The notes beneath the pieces were generated by a model. The model ran no database searches. It was given only the letters and a program-made list of their open reading frames with translations, and was not told the DNA's origin. From assembly GCA_020247545.1 (NCBI GenBank), contig JADCIX010000073.1, positions 1-37,013 on the forward strand: DNA of 37,013 bases, in the 5' to 3' direction. Shown here in pieces: positions 6,992-37,013 of this stretch. The stretch is from Rhodocyclaceae bacterium (GTDB lineage Bacteria > Pseudomonadota > Gammaproteobacteria > Burkholderiales > Usitatibacteraceae). The stretch's first letter is position 1. Every line of letters starts with the position of its first letter. A program made the position numbers and the translations under genes.

Positions 6992-8245
6992 TTAGTTGGT
7001 CTGCAAGACCTGTGGATTATCGGCGGACGCGTGTTTACGCGAGAAATACTCTTTGGATTGCATCTCGCGAAGTCGCGACGCAGTGCGAGCAAATTCTGCC
7101 GACACCATCATGCTGGCGTCAGTGGCTGTCGTTGCCCCCAACGAAGCATTAGCACCAACAACACGATCATCAACCACCAACCATTCGGGCGTGGCGTTGG
7201 CCGAACAAATCAACTTGACACGCTGGTCGTAAAACACGTCGACTAGCCAGGTAAACCGCCGCACCACGTCCGCACTGTTCTTGGCATGGAGCTGCGGGAT
7301 GTTTGAGATAAGTACCGTATGGTATTGGCTGGCGATTTCCAAATAGTCCATCTGGCTACGCGGCTTCACACACAATTCTTTGAAGTCAAACCACACGACA
7401 CCTTTTGCACGCCGGATGAAGCCCATCGGACGATTACCGATTGTCAGGCTGCCGCCCGCGGCAAAGCCGGACTTGGACATCGCCGAAAACGCTCTGCCCA
7501 GCGCTTGTTCGGCGGCGGCATCTGGCGGCGTGTGATAGACCGGGATCGACTCGAGGATACGTCGACGATGGTCGCGTTCCCCGCCGATTTCAAGCACTTC
7601 TAAATCGCGCTTTAGCAGCTCGATGGCCGGAAGAAAACGGGCACGCTGCAAGCCGCTGGGATAGAGGTCGTCGGGTCTATAGTTTGAGGTCATGACCAAT
7701 ACCACGCCCTTCGCCGTCAACAACTCAAGCAAACGTCCGAGGATCATCGCATCAGCGATATCAGAAACATGGAACTCATCAAAACACAAGAGACGTAACT
7801 GTTTGGCGATGGTGTTGGACACTGCATCCAACGGATCTTCTTCACCTGAATGCGCCCGCATTTCGGCGTGGACTTCCCGCATGAATTCATGGAAGTGAAC
7901 ACGCCGCTTGCGTTTGAGCGTGGAGACGTTAAAGAACGCATCCATCATCAATGATTTACCACGCCCGACTCTTCCCCAAATGTACAACCCGCGGGGCGGC
8001 TTCTTGCCGCCGCCAAAGTTGGTCACCAGTCGGTTGATTTTGCCTTGACGGTACTGACGGTAGTTTTCAATTTCACCGTGCAGCCGATCGAGGTGATTAA
8101 GCACGGCGATTTGCGCAGGATCTGACTCAAAGTCGTGATTCTGCGAAAACTTCCAATACCACTCCAACGGCGAACCCGCCTCGATATCAGCGGCCTCACC
8201 AGTTTCGCCGGAGATATTGGGTAGGTCTTCAGCGGTCGCTTTCAT
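6992..8245 (-). CDS. zapE: Cell division protein ZapE (AFG1-family ATPase)
   Basis: A 417-residue P-loop ATPase of the AFG1/LACE1/ZapE family. The Walker A GRVGRGKS is at residues 91-98, Walker B LLCFDEFHV at 152-160, and the TSNYRPDDLYPSGLQR block (sensor region) is typical of the family. ZapE binds FtsZ and acts at the division site in E. coli; the mitochondrial homologue has roles in protein quality control. The C-terminal 40 residues after the conserved fold are not recognised. In betaproteobacteria this gene commonly follows odhL, as here. The intervening 222 bp carry a dispersed repeat and a 10-bp tandem repeat. Confidence 0.93.
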   Translation of the reverse strand: MKATAEDLPNISGETGEAADIEAGSPLEWYWKFSQNHDFESDPAQIAVLNHLDRLHGEIENYRQYRQGKINRLVTNFGGGKKPPRGLYIWGRVGRGKSLMMDAFFNVSTLKRKRRVHFHEFMREVHAEMRAHSGEEDPLDAVSNTIAKQLRLLCFDEFHVSDIADAMILGRLLELLTAKGVVLVMTSNYRPDDLYPSGLQRARFLPAIELLKRDLEVLEIGGERDHRRRILESIPVYHTPPDAAAEQALGRAFSAMSKSGFAAGGSLTIGNRPMGFIRRAKGVVWFDFKELCVKPRSQMDYLEIASQYHTVLISNIPQLHAKNSADVVRRFTWLVDVFYDQRVKLICSANATPEWLVVDDRVVGANASLGATTATDASMMVSAEFARTASRLREMQSKEYFSRKHASADNPQVLQTN

Positions 8246-14500: not shown

Positions 14501-15790
14501 TTACTTGACGTCGCGGCGCTGCGCACCGACGTACAACTGCCGTGGACGGCCAATCTTGTATTCCGGGTCGGCGATCATCTCGTTCAACTGTGCAATCCAC
14601 CCGACGGTCCGCGCCAGCGCGAAGATAGCGGTGAAGAGCGGCACTGGGATACCGATCGCCTTCTGTACGATACCGGAATAGAAATCAACGTTTGGATAGA
14701 GCTTGCGGCTCACAAAGTAATCGTCTTCGAGCGCGATCTTTTCGAGTGCCATCGCGAGCTTGAATAGCGGATCGTCTTGCAGCCCCAATTCGTTCAACAC
14801 CTCGTAGCAGGTTTCGCGCATCAGCTTCGCACGCGGGTCGTAGTTCTTGTAGACCCGATGACCGAATCCCATTAAACGCACACTGGAGTTCTTATCTTTG
14901 ACCTGCGCGATGAAATCACCGATTTTCTCGATCCCGCCGTTACGCTGAATATCGTAGAGCATATTCAGCGCCGCTTCGTTTGCGCCGCCATGCGCCGGCC
15001 CCCACAAACAGGCCACACCTGCTGCGATCGCGGCAAACGGGTTTGTGCCCGACGAAGCGCAAAGCCGTACCGTGGAGGTTGAGGCGTTCTGCTCATGATC
15101 CGCATGCAAGATAAAAATGCGATCCAGCGCACGTACCAGCACGTCATTGATCTTGTATTCTTCGGCCGGCACGGCAAACATCATGCGCATAAAGTTTGCC
15201 GTGTAGCCCAAGTCGTTTCGTGGATAAATCAGCGGCTGACCCACCGTGTACTTGTATGCCATTGCGGTCAGCGTTGGCAGCTTGGCGATCAAACGAATCG
15301 CGGAAATCTCACGCTGCTCTTTGTCGTGCAGATTGATTGAGTCGGGATAGAACGCCGACATTGCGCCGAGTAAACCCGTCATGACGGACATCGGATGCGC
15401 GTCGCGGCGGAAGCCACGCAGGAAAAACTGCATCTGCTCGTGCACCATCGTGTGATTAGTGACACGGCTGACGAAATCCTTGCGGCCAGCGTCGTTAGGC
15501 AAATCGCCGTACAAAAGCAGATAACAGACTTGCAGAAAATCACACTTTGTTGCGAGCTGTTCGATCGGATAACCGCGATACAACAACTCGCCTTTGTCGC
15601 CATCAATAAAGGTGATAGTGGAGTTGCAGGACGCTGTCGACATAAAGCCGGGATCGTAGGTAAACATTCCCGTCTGCCCGTAAAGCTTGCGGATATCAAT
15701 TACATCGGGGCCGTGAGATCCACCGTACACCGGCAACTCGATTGCGTTACCGTTTTGAAGCGTCAAAGTTGCTTTACCGTTGGCATTCAT
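14501..15790 (-). CDS. gltA: Citrate synthase (type II)
   Basis: A 429-residue enzyme from the ATG at 15790 (MNANGKATL), which has AAGGATC upstream and gives the length normal for hexameric type II citrate synthases. An open frame extends 31 codons further upstream but shows no conservation. Catalytic residues: H267 in GPAHGGAN, H311 in [13 protein letters not shown], and the C-terminal Asp in the NVDFYSG block. It condenses acetyl-CoA and oxaloacetate. The N-terminal beta domain ([11 protein letters not shown]) typical of the allosteric gram-negative enzyme is present. It follows sdhE after 49 bp. It is distinct from the methylcitrate synthase gene prpC in the same window. Confidence 0.97.
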
Positions 15791-16831: not shown

Positions 16832-18628
16832 TTAGTAGGTGCGCGCTTTGGGTGCAAACGACGGAACCGTCAGCGGCTGCAGGTTTACCGGCTTGTAATC
16901 AAGCCGGTTACCTTGTTTGTACCAAAGGGTGTGTTTGAGCCAGTTGTCGTCGTCCCGACCATTGACAAAACCCGGACGATCGTGGAAGTCGGCGCGATCA
17001 TGCGCACCACGCGTTTCTTTGCGCGCTTCCGCCGAGACCATCGTCGACACTGCCACCTCGATGAGGTTCTGTAGCTCGAGTGCCTCAATACGTGCAGTGT
17101 TGAAAACCTTCGACTTATCTTTGATTTCCAAGTGCTCGGCGCGCTCGGCAACTTGCTTGATTTTTGTCACGCCCTTTTCAAGCATGTCCGGGAAGCGGAA
17201 TACACCGCAGTGCGCCTGCATGGTCTGGCGCATGGCATCTCCCACGGCATGCACCGACTCGCCGCCCGTCTTGGCGTCGAGTGCCGCAATCCGCGCGACC
17301 GAAATTTCGCCAGCGTCGGTCGGCAGTGGCTTGTGCGTGTTGTTTTCACGAATGAACTTGATCATCGAGTCGCCGGCCGATTTGCCCATCACCAGCAAGT
17401 CGGTCAGCGAATTGGTGCCAAGCCGGTTCGCACCGTGGATCGACGCACACCCCACTTCGCCGGCAGCATAAAAACCCGGAACGACGGTATTTGGATTGCC
17501 GTTCTGCGGGATCACCACTTCTGCGAGGTAATTGGTTGGGATACCGCCCATTTGGTAGTGGCAGGTCGGCACCACCGGGATAGGCTCTTTGGTGCAATCG
17601 ACGTTGCCAAACTTGAGTGCGATTTCGCGGATGCCCGGCAGCCTTTTGTTGATGACGTCGGGCCCAAGGTGATCAAGTTTCAGCAAGATGTAATCTTTGT
17701 TGGGCCCAGCACCGCGACCGTCCTTGATTTCGGTCGCCATGGCGCGCGAAACGACATCGCGCGAAGCAAGATCTTTCATGGTCGGCGCGTAACGTTCCAT
17801 AAAACGTTCGCCGTCTTTATTCAGCAGAATGCCACCTTCACCGCGTACGCCCTCGGTGATCAGCACACCGGCGCCGGCGACCCCGGTTGGATGAAACTGC
17901 CAGAACTCCATATCTTCCAGCGGAATACCCGCACGCGCTGCCATGCCTAGACCGTCACCCGTGTTGATAAATGCATTCGTTGAAGAGGCATAGATCCGGC
18001 CAGCACCCCCCGTGGCAAACAACGTAGCCTTGGCATGGAAAATCATTGCCTCGCCGGTTTCCATCTCAAGCGCGGTGACGCCAACCACATCGCCGGCAGC
18101 GTCGCGAATCAGATCAAGCGCCATCCATTCGACGAAGAACTGCGTATTGGCGAAAACATTGCGCTGATAGAGCGTGTGCAACATGGCGTGCCCGGTACGA
18201 TCCGCTGCACAGCAAGAACGCTGAACCGGCTTCTCACCAAAATTTTGCGAGTGTCCACCGAACGGACGCTGGTATATCGTGCCATTGTCATTACGGTCGA
18301 ACGGCATCCCAAAATGCTCAAGCTCGATGACGGCCTCGGGAGCGGCTTTACACATGAACTCAATGGCGTCTTGGTCACCAAGCCAGTCGGATCCCTTGAC
18401 TGTGTCATACATATGCCAGTGCCAGTTATCTTCGCCCATGTTGCCCAACGATGCACCAACACCGCCCTGCGCTGCGACGGTATGCGAGCGCGTGGGAAAC
18501 ACCTTGGACAGCACCGCAACCGTTAGCCCTGCGGTTGAAAGCTGTAACGCGGCGCGCAAGCCGGAGCCGCCCGCACCCACAACGACGGCATCGAATTTGC
18601 GAACCGGAAGTGATGAAACTGAAGCCAT
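16832..18628 (-). CDS. sdhA: Succinate dehydrogenase flavoprotein subunit
   Basis: A 598-residue catalytic subunit, the standard length. The Rossmann motif VVGAGGSG is at about 16-23. The covalent FAD histidine is H49 in RSHTVAAQGG. Active-site blocks are FHPTG, RGEGG, TCHYQMGGIPTN and GANRLGTNSL. It oxidises succinate to fumarate, including the succinate released by PrpB in the methylcitrate cycle. GGAG upstream of the ATG supports the start, and the sdhD stop lies three bases before it. SdhE, which flavinylates it, is encoded just downstream of sdhB. Confidence 0.98.
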   Translation of the reverse strand: MASVSSLPVRKFDAVVVGAGGSGLRAALQLSTAGLTVAVLSKVFPTRSHTVAAQGGVGASLGNMGEDNWHWHMYDTVKGSDWLGDQDAIEFMCKAAPEAVIELEHFGMPFDRNDNGTIYQRPFGGHSQNFGEKPVQRSCCAADRTGHAMLHTLYQRNVFANTQFFVEWMALDLIRDAAGDVVGVTALEMETGEAMIFHAKATLFATGGAGRIYASSTNAFINTGDGLGMAARAGIPLEDMEFWQFHPTGVAGAGVLITEGVRGEGGILLNKDGERFMERYAPTMKDLASRDVVSRAMATEIKDGRGAGPNKDYILLKLDHLGPDVINKRLPGIREIALKFGNVDCTKEPIPVVPTCHYQMGGIPTNYLAEVVIPQNGNPNTVVPGFYAAGEVGCASIHGANRLGTNSLTDLLVMGKSAGDSMIKFIRENNTHKPLPTDAGEISVARIAALDAKTGGESVHAVGDAMRQTMQAHCGVFRFPDMLEKGVTKIKQVAERAEHLEIKDKSKVFNTARIEALELQNLIEVAVSTMVSAEARKETRGAHDRADFHDRPGFVNGRDDDNWLKHTLWYKQGNRLDYKPVNLQPLTVPSFAPKARTY

Positions 18629-34700: not shown

Positions 34701-35413
34701 AGAGTCTGCGTACCGCGATTCACGACGACATCCGCAAAGTGATCGACAAAAAAGGCTTAAAACAAAGCACCATTCATATCCTTGATGCGCTGCTCAAGCT
34801 GCGCCAGGTTTGTTGCGATCCACGCTTGGTGAATTTACCTTCGGCGAACAAACGCTTCAGCGGTGCTGGGTCGGCGAAACTCGAGTGGCTGATGGGACAC
34901 ATGCCGGAATTGCTCGAGGAAGGTCGGCAAATTCTCGTGTTCTCGCAATTCACGAGTATGTTGGCGCTGATCGCCGAGGGGCTAACCGCACAGGGTATTG
35001 AATTTGTCACGTTGACCGGCGAGACCGTCGACCGCGAAACGCCGATTAACCAATTTCAGTCTGGTGCCGTACGGGTATTTTTGTTGAGCCTCAAAGCCGG
35101 CGGCGTTGGTCTGAACCTCACCGCTGCGGATACTGTCATTCACTACGACCCGTGGTGGAACCCGGCGGTGGAAGCGCAAGCCACTGCTCGCGCGCACCGT
35201 ATCGGCCAAACCAAGCCGGTGTTTGTGACCCGCCTTGTGACACAAGGTACGCTGGAGGAGCGCATGATGACGCTGTTGGCACGCAAACGCGAGTTAGCTG
35301 CGGCATTGCTAGAGGGCGGGGGTAGCGCACTGACCGGCATCACGCTGGCCGATGTGGAGTCGCTGTTGGCACCGCTGAACTCATTGGCAGCCACACCATC
35401 CCAGCCGCAGTAA
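31736..35413 (+). CDS. SWIM zinc-finger SNF2/HepA-type helicase
   Basis: A 1225-residue superfamily 2 protein. An N-terminal SWIM zinc finger has the CxC...CxH pattern (DCSCPVGNNCKHA, about 92-104). A long middle region (about 200-730) has a Pro/Ala/Ser-rich linker and a bacterial SNF2-associated domain. The ATPase core has DDMGLGKT (about 772), VVFDEAQTIKN (Walker B DEAQ, about 871), LTGTPMENHLGELW, SLKAGGVGLNLTAAD and ARAHRIGQ (about 1152). Such proteins move along or remodel nucleic acid or nucleoprotein; a specific role is not known. No Shine-Dalgarno sequence is seen at the ATG used, and an ATG at 31778 is an alternative. It has no defence-system neighbours. Confidence 0.9.
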   Translation: MPSKPINHEPDRLGMRVVMNEIREVFGNTTTARAFGIERDKHDILWLAADEVDEDVWHVHGEVQGSADEPYATDIEVVVSLDDGEFTVLDADCSCPVGNNCKHAAALLMRWVGKWGLEDGGPAFASITAIEDRRLTAAPPASHAEKGTPTSGTGSPRNTSTRKPPKEVEIPKPVTQKTGLPAPLASWLETTIRVGTGSGTGGAAPSAKKKPSPTTRKPCIFYLLTDDGVLHALRGRRRPDGSEPELTGEYATTAWLGTGRDLPSYADENDIAVLTLMATKREYAYGNLSTRINGVQGYQLLQLAQHTGRLHALRHSSLAAALSKSALPSERSLLDALVFGEPRAASLTWRANDADPANKMRLAASIEGMPVVLIASDPPYALDLPQHRLVPVSVAISTPTLMRLTALPAIKPDDDLAWAYVRDAIEALPDAVNVPPVPTANAARLLIPKAVLSFVLIEYDAVKVWGRKTTVEPRSFPAVQLLFDYDGERRPAEAQGFSTAVEIEKLGNLVQATRLRNVRAETDWQRRLPTQLVRALQVEYSIAHAALDGNLTSQSLWMLPSHDWAGKGTEVLADAQAAGFAIEIDPSFPLSLEDIPTPELELAAAPENGWYRIALGVNVNGERVDLAPALAKLIGAQHDPEAWLAALPSVPTVLLSVPPKKGKHAAIVVRLPGERVHALLAPVFDWFRGGELTPISGLQAAMVADLPPAAVRYLGRDDPRWLNMRAAIAEGAILTATTPHPAFQASLRAYQLHGLAWLSHLRALSMAGVLADDMGLGKTVQTLAFLHQRAQSASANRRPSLIVAPTSVTVNWLAEIRRFAPTLRVISHYGASRLLDDAAMANADLVLTSYPILQRDEKRLSEIKWDVVVFDEAQTIKNAKAKTYQAAQSLSAELRLALTGTPMENHLGELWALFNLLLPGLLGDLETFNRVFRHPIELRAATEQMQKLRARIRPFMLRRTREQVLADLPEKTEYTRWIELQPLQADLYESLRTAIHDDIRKVIDKKGLKQSTIHILDALLKLRQVCCDPRLVNLPSANKRFSGAGSAKLEWLMGHMPELLEEGRQILVFSQFTSMLALIAEGLTAQGIEFVTLTGETVDRETPINQFQSGAVRVFLLSLKAGGVGLNLTAADTVIHYDPWWNPAVEAQATARAHRIGQTKPVFVTRLVTQGTLEERMMTLLARKRELAAALLEGGGSALTGITLADVESLLAPLNSLAATPSQPQ

Positions 35414-35845
35414 CGCGATAGAAGTCACGCGTACGATCAAACCGGCGTTTCTCGCAGACGACCCGAAAGCTTATCTGTGAGAAACGCACAAGATAATTGC
35501 GCATGCACTTTACGCTGCGGGACTGACAGGATGTCCGATGGGAGCTGAAGAGCCAGTTTGGTATCGAAGTGCTGGTTCGAATTGACGGGGGACCTGCCTC
35601 AATCAGCTGATCGATCTATCCGCGTACGGGTAGACTCTCGTAGAAGGCAATTCCAAGCACCAGAGGCAAGATGAGGACGATCCAGCACGGTCGAAGGGGA
35701 TTGGAATTCATGACAAGAGAAAAGGTTGATCTCACTATACAAGGAGGCTATCAAGCAGCCTGCCTAAGCCGGGTCCGGTTAAATAGCAGGTTAAGCTGAA
35801 CGCGCGAGTAATGCCAGCGTTGCGCGTCTCGACGGGCGAACGCCA
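35414..35845. other. Non-coding gap with one strong hairpin
   Basis: No gene is supported in these 432 bp. GCGTTTCTCGCAGA (35445-35458) pairs with TCTGTGAGAAACGC (35474-35487) over a 15-nt loop, with one G.T pair. It lies 32 bp after the helicase stop and may end its transcript, though no T-tract follows. AGGCT/AGCCT at 35745-35761 is a minor hairpin. A cassette recombination site was sought near 35770-35845 for the PilZ gene and not found. Confidence 0.45.
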
Positions 35846-36190
35846 CTATCCTACATATTGGGCGATTGACGATACAGCCTCAGGCTCCAACTTCAGAAAT
35901 CGCAGGCCTATCTTGAAATTTCGTTCAGCGGTACCATAAATACTGTGGGCAACTTTCACCGTTGCTTCAACCGTTGTTCTTCCTCCGGACTTCACCGGGA
36001 TACCAAAGCGAATAAAGAGTGTCTCCCCGATTTTTGGATTTATTGCTCCAATAATAGCAAGCCCCCCCGCGCTAATATCAGTAGTACGAACCTCAACAAC
36101 CTGACTATCCGGTAGCGCGACATGGGCTGTAGTATGGAGGTGCCTGCGTTTATGTTGCCTCAGCTCAATACCGGGGACGGGAGTATTCAT
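35846..36190 (-). CDS. PilZ domain protein, possibly an integron cassette gene
   Basis: A 114-residue single-domain PilZ protein. The c-di-GMP-binding RxxxR motif is RQHKR (residues 11-15) and the second motif is DISAGGLAI (about 38-46), close to the D/NxSxxG consensus. It would be a cytoplasmic c-di-GMP effector. The ATG lies ten bases after GTTAGGC (36207-36201, minus strand), the commonest form of an attC R' core, which suggests it entered as a gene cassette. A matching attC after its stop is not recognisable, so it may be the terminal cassette with a decayed site, or a resident gene. Confidence 0.85.
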   Translation of the reverse strand: MNTPVPGIELRQHKRRHLHTTAHVALPDSQVVEVRTTDISAGGLAIIGAINPKIGETLFIRFGIPVKSGGRTTVEATVKVAHSIYGTAERNFKIGLRFLKLEPEAVSSIAQYVG

Positions 36191-36200
36191 ATTAGTTGCA

Positions 36201-36305
36201 GCCTAACGAAGCTGTAGAAAAACCCAATCGTACCGCGAACTCGCGTGACGTCGGTGAGCCGATTATAAAATATCAAACTCGCATGGGTCGAACGCTACGT
36301 TACGC
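36201..36305 (-). mobile_element. Probable attC recombination site upstream of the PilZ gene
   Basis: On the minus strand, R''/L'' GCGTAACGTAGC (from 36305) can pair with L'/R' GCTTCGTTAGGC (ending at 36201) at 10 of 12 positions. R' is the canonical GTTAGGC. The length of about 105 bp is within the attC range. It abuts the neighbouring site with a one-base overlap, so the DNA between would be an ORF-less cassette. This is the least certain of the three sites. Confidence 0.5.
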
Positions 36306-36418
36306 TACAACGCAGAGTTGAGCGGACGGAGCCAGCGGCGGCCGGCAGGACGGAGAATATCGGAGTCCTAGCTCGCGGGGTGACGATGGTGTCGGTACGC
36401 TCGAACGCCGGGTTGGAC
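36305..36418 (-). mobile_element. attC recombination site after the TPR cassette gene
   Basis: On the minus strand R'' GTCCAAC (36418-36412) begins one base after the TPR-gene stop, followed by L'' CCGGCGTTCGAGCG. L' CGCTCAACTCTGC leads into R' GTTGTAG (36311-36305). The two ends pair at about 15 of 20 positions with one extrahelical C in L'', as expected for attC. The R' core departs from GTTRRRY at two positions, so activity may be reduced. Confidence 0.7.
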
Positions 36419-36419
36419 C

Positions 36420-36863
36420 TCACCACTGCTCCGGTAGCAGTGACTTCGTTCGTTTCAGAACGAACTCTATGTACTTTGGGTCTTCATCCTGAAAGATGTC
36501 ATCGCCCTCGCGTTCGTACGCCTGAATCAGGTGCTCCGCAGCAAAGTCGAGATCTCCCAGCTCGAACTCGCACTGACCGATTCGAAGATGGATGAAACCA
36601 TCGCCAAGCCCGCCTGGGCATAGCAACGCCTCGCTGAGAGCTTCAACGGCTGTCTCGAAAGCTCCAGTCAGGAAGTGCGTGTCCCCAATGGCCGCAAGCA
36701 CCCGCCTGCTGGCTTCCCACTCGTCCTTGGGCTCAGGAATCAGAGACCACGCCTCCTTATAGCGGGAGAGCGCCTCTTCGTACCTCAACTCGTGAGCCAA
36801 CGCATCACCACTGGCCACGAGACTCTCAATGTCCTCTTCCAGCGCGCTAGGGAACGGTTGCAT
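36420..36863 (-). CDS. TPR-like protein carried on an integron gene cassette
   Basis: A 147-residue acidic, helical protein from the ATG at 36863; the longer in-frame TTG at 36899 lies inside attC and is rejected. Helical repeats include ALAHELRYEEALSRYKEAW, FLTGAFETAVEALSEAL and FELGDLDFAAEHLIQAY, of TPR type, ending in IFQDEDPKYIEFVL. A family of small TPR proteins with this ending is familiar, sometimes near toxin genes, but immunity is not shown here. The ATG lies five bases after an attC R' core and the stop lies one base before the next attC R'', the exact anatomy of an integron cassette. No ribosome site is evident, which is common for cassette ORFs. Confidence 0.8.
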   Translation of the reverse strand: MQPFPSALEEDIESLVASGDALAHELRYEEALSRYKEAWSLIPEPKDEWEASRRVLAAIGDTHFLTGAFETAVEALSEALLCPGGLGDGFIHLRIGQCEFELGDLDFAAEHLIQAYEREGDDIFQDEDPKYIEFVLKRTKSLLPEQW

Positions 36864-36868
36864 GTTAT

Positions 36869-36926
36869 ATCCAACGTTTGAATTCAGCGGCGGCTGCAAG
36901 CCGTCCGCTGGAATGAATTGTTATGC
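36869..36926 (-). mobile_element. attC recombination site, 58 bp
   Basis: On the minus strand: R'' GCATAAC (36926-36920), then AATTCATTC as in many attC sites, then CAGCGG-A-CGGCT, loop TGC, AGCCG-CCGCTG, and L' leading into R' GTTGGAT (36875-36869), which fits GTTRRRY. The 11-bp stem is perfect apart from one extrahelical A. This is the clearest attC in the window and precedes the TPR cassette gene by five bases. Confidence 0.85.
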
Positions 36927-37013
36927 ACGGCAGCATGGTGGCCGGAACATGGAGAACAACTGCGCAAGGTAAGAGCTCGTTGAAGGGTAGTGCGCCTTCG
37001 ACGACGAAAACAA
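36921..37013 (-). CDS. Possible 3' end of a further cassette gene
   Basis: A minus-strand frame is open from the right edge to a TAA at 36923-36921, which lies inside the R'' core of the 58-bp attC. Stops inside or next to R'' are usual for cassette genes. Only 30 residues are visible and no family is recognised. Confidence 0.3.
   Translation of the reverse strand: MFSSSKAHYPSTSSYLAQLFSMFRPPCCRA

Follow-up and report, generated by a model that had tools for sequence, protein, structure and literature searches.

The right end of a Rhodocyclaceae contig as the probable integrase-distal end of a chromosomal integron

The stretch of DNA analysed here (37,013 nucleotides, hereafter the window) is contig C71 of a 3.54-Mb draft genome in 95 contigs. 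At its right end, on the minus strand, a chromosomal PilZ-domain gene is followed by one complete cassette and the last part of another, with an attC site belonging to each:

35846..36190, minus strand: PilZ-domain gene, the first gene outside the array (Pfam PilZ, E 8.9e-12)
36201..36207, minus strand: R'-like core GTTAGGC, ten bases before the PilZ start codon
36305..36418, minus strand: site 2, attC of the TPR cassette (114 bases; covariance model 37.6 bits, E 2.8e-7)
36420..36863, minus strand: ORF of the TPR cassette (147 aa; Pfam TPR_12 E 1.4e-9, TPR_2 E 4e-8)
36869..36926, minus strand: site 1, attC of the fatty-acid-hydroxylase-like cassette (58 bases; covariance model 53.7 bits, E 2.9e-11)
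36921..37013, minus strand: 3' end of the next cassette ORF, fatty-acid-hydroxylase-like (full ORF of 291 aa at C18:49-924)

The stretches 36305-36418 and 36869-36926 are attC sites. Read on the minus strand, site 1 (36926-36869) consists of R'' GCATAAC, a 5-base spacer, L'' ATT[C]CAGCG, L' CGCTGAAT, a 6-base spacer and R' GTTGGAT, and site 2 (36418-36305) of R'' GTCCAAC, a 5-base spacer, L'' GTT[C]GAGCG, L' CGCTCAAC, a 5-base spacer and R' GTTGTAG, the last of which deviates from GTTRRRY. In each site L'' and L' form eight pairs with one extrahelical C. The R' of site 1 (36875-36869) forms the junction with the TPR cassette, whose ORF has its ATG at 36863 and its stop at 36420. A preliminary description of this DNA, made from the letters alone, had proposed two R''-L''-L'-R' sites of 58 and 114 bases on the same strand, with extrahelical bases, that bracket one ORF in the fashion of a cassette, R' lying five bases before the ATG and R'' one base after the stop; the coordinates and architecture are exact in the sequence, and the spacing of the bracketed ORF is as it had been given. 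An alternative TTG start of the TPR ORF, at 36899, would fall within attC.

TPR domains usually bind other proteins. The TPR protein of this cassette has no match in NCBIfam at E<=0.001, and relatives of 40-49% identity occur in 17 of 300 genomes of the order (E<=1e-25, own genome included). We considered whether this family travels as cassettes; the idea is unsupported, no attC being found at E<=0.1 at the relative loci searched, which came from 11 of the 16 other genomes.

Motif scans by themselves do not establish the two sites as beyond chance. A loose scan gave 11 matches over both strands of the window, set against a shuffle control of 0.75 matches on a single strand; nine of the 11 do not lie at sites 1 and 2, and several of these outscore the two sites, which sit at the threshold. 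A strict scan kept site 1 and one other match (17606-17705), with 0.55 matches in shuffles of both strands, and did not pick up site 2 in the window. Simple hairpin scanners were likewise dropped as evidence for the window sites, being not discriminating.

The decisive evidence that the sites exceed chance is a covariance model (R1), which we built ourselves from 45 attC sites, none of them from the window's genome. For training, a strict pattern was run on 20 intI-adjacent regions from other genomes of the order, 13 of which gave sites on the array strand. These regions yielded 174 sites on the array strand vs 4 on the opposite strand, and the split in three complete genomes was 35:0, 0:34 and 44:0. 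From the 174 sites, 49 were picked and aligned, and four were then dropped (one misaligned, three long or irregular). Because the sites were selected by pairing, pair counts on the training alignment are not independent support for attC. When the window was searched with filters off (E<=10), the third-best match had an E-value of only 0.56 and the eight matches other than sites 1 and 2 ranged from 0.56 to 6.8; these E-values are rough, the model calibration having been short. Rfam returned nothing at E<=1 for 35000-37013. In single-stranded DNA folds, site 2 forms a long hairpin on the bottom strand of the cassette, at -25.4 kcal/mol (z -2.3) vs -13.8 kcal/mol (z +0.65) for the top strand; the two strands of site 1 are near equal, at -13.3 and -13.2 kcal/mol (z -3.0 and -3.2).

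The last 141 bases of the window (36873-37013) are identical to C18:1-141. Read leftward towards the window, C18 carries an attI-like junction, the 291-aa ORF of which the window holds the 3' end, and the attC of that ORF, which is the window's 36869-36926. The full 291-aa protein matches Pfam FA_hydroxylase (E 2.1e-27); an identity as OlsE is not claimed, the model giving 169 bits vs a cut-off of 475. An integrase gene, intI, lies at C18:1171-2115 on the plus strand, divergent from the cassettes, and starts about 0.9-1.0 kb beyond the window end. Its reading frame is intact, its product scores 445.7 bits with TIGR02249 (cut-off 265) and 486.8 bits with NF011946 (cut-off 435), and it aligns over its full length (E 4.3e-81) with 2a3v, a solved integron integrase. 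From cassette polarity the preliminary description had predicted an integrase to the right of the window; a full intI is indeed present there, on a contig that overlaps the window's last 141 bases, and the TPR cassette, the further cassette, the attI-like site and the divergent intI lie where the polarity rule places them. The attC covariance search that it had put forward as a check also bore it out, since with our self-built model the window gives two significant minus-strand matches, accompanied by an intI to the right in divergent orientation.

An (A/G)AGTT core lies at the first cassette junction on C18, on a second integron contig of the same genome (C44) and in two sister genomes, G003 and G008, the attI-like cores being AAGTTATGC on C18, GAGTTAGGC on C44 and in G003, and GAGTTGGGC in G008. 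A LexA-like box on C18 (CTGTATTAATGCACAG, 1055-1070) overlaps the probable ATG of intI, and another on C44 (CTGTACATGTATACAG, 7094-7109) has the same layout at the probable start of the second intI. Boxes equally loose arise in 31/200 and 25/200 shuffles of the C18 and C44 loci, respectively; therefore it is their position, and not the match itself, that carries weight. So placed, the boxes point to possible SOS control of both genes, and induction of intI by the SOS response is given in the figure legend of a review (PMC8618304).

The second full intI, on C44, scores 457.7 bits with TIGR02249 and is also above the NF011946 cut-off. Both integrase frames are full and free of stops, and both products align with 2a3v. 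C44 also has an attI-like site, two cassettes, one DUF998 and one esterase-like, and the beginning of a third, with vapBC and acnA alongside. Across the genome the covariance model gave 32 matches at E<=10, of which 28, on 11 contigs, reach E<=0.001; the count is a lower bound, as the fast first pass scored 150 of 1,959 candidates, and it includes one site twice, in its C18 and C71 copies. The attC sites are of mixed length (about 57-130 bases) and the arrays are broken across contigs. Further cassette clusters lie on C47, C64, C31, C62, C90 and C66, some of their cassettes being diverged copies, and stretches are shared between C31 and C62 (558 bases at 90%) and between C31 and C47 (140 bases at 95%). 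On C25, a short partial integrase-like match (15393-15611, 24 bits) lies about 0.8 kb from a lone attC match (C25:16407-16475). A repeat around GGTCAACTTGGGTCCCCGCCTGCGCGG is found near contig ends in two genomes of the genus (L012 1-80, L012 being C44, and L065 100-700).

As a second test, independent of the first, the R boxes were compared between cassettes. The R'' of the fatty-acid-hydroxylase-like cassette (GCATAAC) pairs at 7/7 positions with its own start, GTTATGC, at the C18 attI-like site, and that of the TPR cassette (GTCCAAC) pairs with its own start, GTTGGAT, through six Watson-Crick pairs and one G-T; against the R' that follow them here the same two boxes reach 3/7 and 5/7, respectively, in strict counts. 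Over 15 cassettes of C47, C64, C31 and C44, namely those with their start on the contig (C62, C90 and C66 were left unscored), R'' pairing averages 6.5 with the cassette's own start vs 5.7 with the R' that follows, and the latter pairs better in just one of the 15. Such pairing with the own start is as expected if each cassette was inserted as a unit.

In a quick tree, the C18 and C44 integrases cluster with those of G002, G008, G010 and G011 in a genus clade (support 0.991) that holds five genomes of the genus, a fragment from G006 having been left out; the C18 integrase is sister to that of G002 (0.925), and the G001 integrase falls outside the clade. An attC match at E<=0.001 is present in 12 of the 13 genus genomes, and an integrase above the cut-off in 28 of 61 genomes of the wider group, own genome included.

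The sister genomes show where this integron sits. In G008, a single contig carries prpF, SNF2, PilZ, minus-strand cassettes, intI, vapBC, acnA and DUF885, its left part being 83.9% identical in nucleotides to the window over 5.1 kb and its right part 86.8% identical to C44 over 4.7 kb. Since the window flank and the C44 flank enclose one integron in G008, the integron locus is older than this genome. The array ends beside TCA/propionate genes because the integron sits between prpF-SNF2-PilZ and vapBC-acnA in G008; this end of the array had been named as a puzzle in the preliminary description, and it is accounted for by the same-genus layout around prpF-PilZ and vapBC-acnA. Signs of an integron at the locus were found in the window's own genome (G000), G008, G012 and G003, which agrees with a chromosomal locus kept by vertical descent. 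In G012, four attC-like sites (E 1.8e-9 to 0.0045) precede vapBC-acnA on the same strand; this genome, which is 80% complete, gave no full intI. G003, a complete genome, retains vapCB with an intI-start-like stretch and an attI-like stretch (L054 1900-2260), and has five scattered attC matches at E<=0.001.

Not all genomes of the genus carry the integron at this locus. In G002, prpF, vapBC and acnA are adjacent, and neither cassettes nor intI were found in the 582 bases between prpF and vapB. The acnA-upstream stretches searched in G001, G002, G004 and G011 yielded no attC, that of G010 being too short to judge, and G011:C99 and G012:C161, two contigs that break off shortly past SNF2, yielded none at E<=1. 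The G008 intI (L044 9472-10497) has in-frame stops, and stops are also present in the intI of G010 and G011; they represent integrase decay in sister genomes.

On the chromosome side the array is bounded by the PilZ gene, which is present in two of the 13 genus genomes (own genome included), the G008 copy being 81% identical. PilZ was considered as the last cassette and rejected, the covariance model placing no attC after the gene. In G008, too, GTTAGGC lies ten bases ahead of the PilZ ATG, although DNA similarity between the window and G008 ends at window position 36186, at the start of PilZ. The GTTAGGC before PilZ may be a remnant of the array's old chromosomal edge. Site 2 is the last recognisable attC on this side; a third site at 36201-36323, suggested by the first scanner, was not retained, the covariance model giving only 0.8 bits for 36201-36305. 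The 97 bases between site 2 and GTTAGGC (36208-36304) hold no convincing ORF and are possibly a worn-out cassette or attC.

We read the window end as the integrase-distal end of a chromosomal integron, with a probability of about 0.96, and none of the tests made yielded evidence against an integron. In integrons, IntI binds the folded bottom strand of attC and swaps strands at the G^TT cutting point; because new cassettes enter at attI, the oldest lie farthest from it. The extrahelical base and the fixed polarity of cassettes are likewise general features of integrons. Here, IntI, a tyrosine recombinase whose gene lies about 1 kb beyond the window, would act on the folded bottom strand of attC, cut R' between G and TT and insert circular cassettes at attI. 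The product would be a fatty-acid-hydroxylase-like and then a TPR cassette, each an ORF with its own attC, set up against chromosomal PilZ, and the TPR cassette, lying against PilZ, would be an old one. The cassettes may be read from an upstream promoter or from promoters of their own, and expression of intI would rise in the SOS response.

The integrase of the window cassettes may be that of C18, to which the overlap ties the window, or that of C44, to which synteny ties it; the two readings below are sub-readings of the integron explanation, not alternatives to it. The first, to which we give even odds, places the window array under the C44 integrase, in the order PilZ, TPR cassette, a copy of the fatty-acid-hydroxylase cassette, further cassettes, attI, intI (C44), vapBC and acnA, with C18 a separate integron elsewhere that shares the fatty-acid-hydroxylase cassette. 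The single G008 contig with PilZ, array, intI, vapBC, acnA and DUF885 argues for this arrangement, as do the adjacent prpF-vapBC-acnA of G002, the worn integron remains beside vapBC-acnA in G003 and G012, and the flank of C18, native but of another locus (89% identity with G008:C48, 81% with G003). A second copy of the fatty-acid-hydroxylase cassette should, however, have made the assembly branch where this cassette begins on C18, yet the contig runs on there without a break; moreover, among the array-bearing ends compared, C71 overlaps C18 only and none overlaps C44 end to end. We also tried to place the C18 locus through its neighbour in G003, a TonB-receptor-like ORF, but the best match in the own genome lay elsewhere on C18, at 52%, and was uninformative.

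The second reading, which we would put a little short of an even chance, is that C71 and C18 are truly adjacent, the C18 integron lying beside PilZ and the flanks having been swapped between two integron loci in the lineage. It draws on the exact 141-base end overlap and on a query of the last 764 window bases against the own genome, which matched the window and C18 only. Yet it calls for a rearrangement with respect to G008, in which one contig shows the other arrangement (G002 agrees with this in part), and the 141-base overlap does not phase C71 with C18 past 141 bases. The choice is between a fatty-acid-hydroxylase cassette common to the two integrons and an exchange of their flanks; true adjacency of C71 and C18 would mean that the integrons had also served as a site for swaps of chromosome flanks.

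A more distant reading takes the window sites as a CALIN, i.e. attC left without a working integrase. The genome does have attC clusters on contigs without a full intI (C47, C64, C31, C62 and C90), and intI is broken, partial or absent in some genomes of the genus, but this genome has two full stop-free intI frames, including the one on the overlapping contig C18, which make this reading very improbable. That the sites merely look like attC and are inverted repeats of another kind (terminator or REP-like) would fit the like patterns, some of them higher-scoring, that the loose scan finds elsewhere in the window, but is contradicted by the covariance search and hardly credible given the model scores, the self-consistency of the cassettes, their polarity and intI.

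Like C71 and C18, which overlap by exactly 141 bases, C44 and C90 share their terminal 141 bases, and such ends would fit assembly at k=141. In eight of ten array-adjacent contig ends (C44, C90, C66, C18, C71 at window 36873, C47, C64 and C31) the terminal 141-mer starts 0-3 bases before the G of R' or ends 2-6 bases after it, fitting a break at G^TT, and the ends of C62 and C25 do not fit; as two pairs of ends share a 141-mer, this amounts to six of eight distinct 141-mers, and for C18 and C47, where the contig begins inside attC, the cut-off site was placed by eye. At window 36872/36873, C18 stops right after GTT. The 141-mer common to C18 and C71 includes 87 bases preceding attC; therefore attC similarity alone is not the cause of the break there. 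The simplest reading is that at each such place a cassette end is followed, or preceded, by different neighbours, because cassettes recur, because the population is mixed, or for both reasons; the pattern of breaks suggests cassettes that recur in various contexts or were reshuffled within the population sampled.

In literature on integrons and assembly graphs, none of the titles among the matches listed concerned breaks at the recombination point. Both the breaks that mark such junctions and the pair of related integrases in one genome are leads and not results. We tentatively propose, at rather less than even odds, that one environmental betaproteobacterial genome carries two SOS-linked integrases of the same lineage, which draw on a common cassette pool whose order was changing in the sampled population. 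If this is true, recent recombination junctions could be read directly off the contig ends, with no need for amplicons or long reads, and the G^TT break pattern may give a cheap look at cassette shuffling in short-read metagenomes.

To conclude, the kind of system is already known, an integron, and the window adds a new example of it, placing a chromosomal integron in a betaproteobacterial genus that, judged by the named relatives of the integrase, seems uncultured. The locus is intact, broken or absent across sister genomes, so that its gain and decay can be traced, and its cassettes (a TPR protein, a fatty-acid-hydroxylase-like enzyme, DUF998 and an esterase-like protein) are of the usual, poorly understood environmental type. 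The system resembles the sedentary chromosomal integrons of Vibrio, Xanthomonas and others in its chromosomal intI divergent from the array, its attI-like site, its attC-bounded ORFs and the LexA-like box at intI. It differs from them in the locus, prp/sdh - PilZ - array - intI - vapBC - acnA, in the presence of two integron loci in one genome, and in the mixed attC lengths (about 57-130 bases). The Xanthomonas ilvD locus is described as a genus-shared integron with intI broken or missing in some members (PMC12444791), and the locus here is likewise shared in the genus, with intI broken or missing in some members. As in CALIN, several attC clusters elsewhere in the draft have no intI on their contig; unlike CALIN, these may be split pieces of two integrons, and draft genomes tend to inflate CALIN counts according to the IntegronFinder 2.0 paper (PMC9024848). 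The window itself falls outside the CALIN definition of at least two attC with no nearby intI, as intI lies on the overlapping contig. Finally, large arrays of the same family (G015, G017 and G019), which helped to train the model, have the same attC plan; in those complete genomes 34-44 strict-pattern sites lie on one strand within 20 kb, whereas the window holds two attC.
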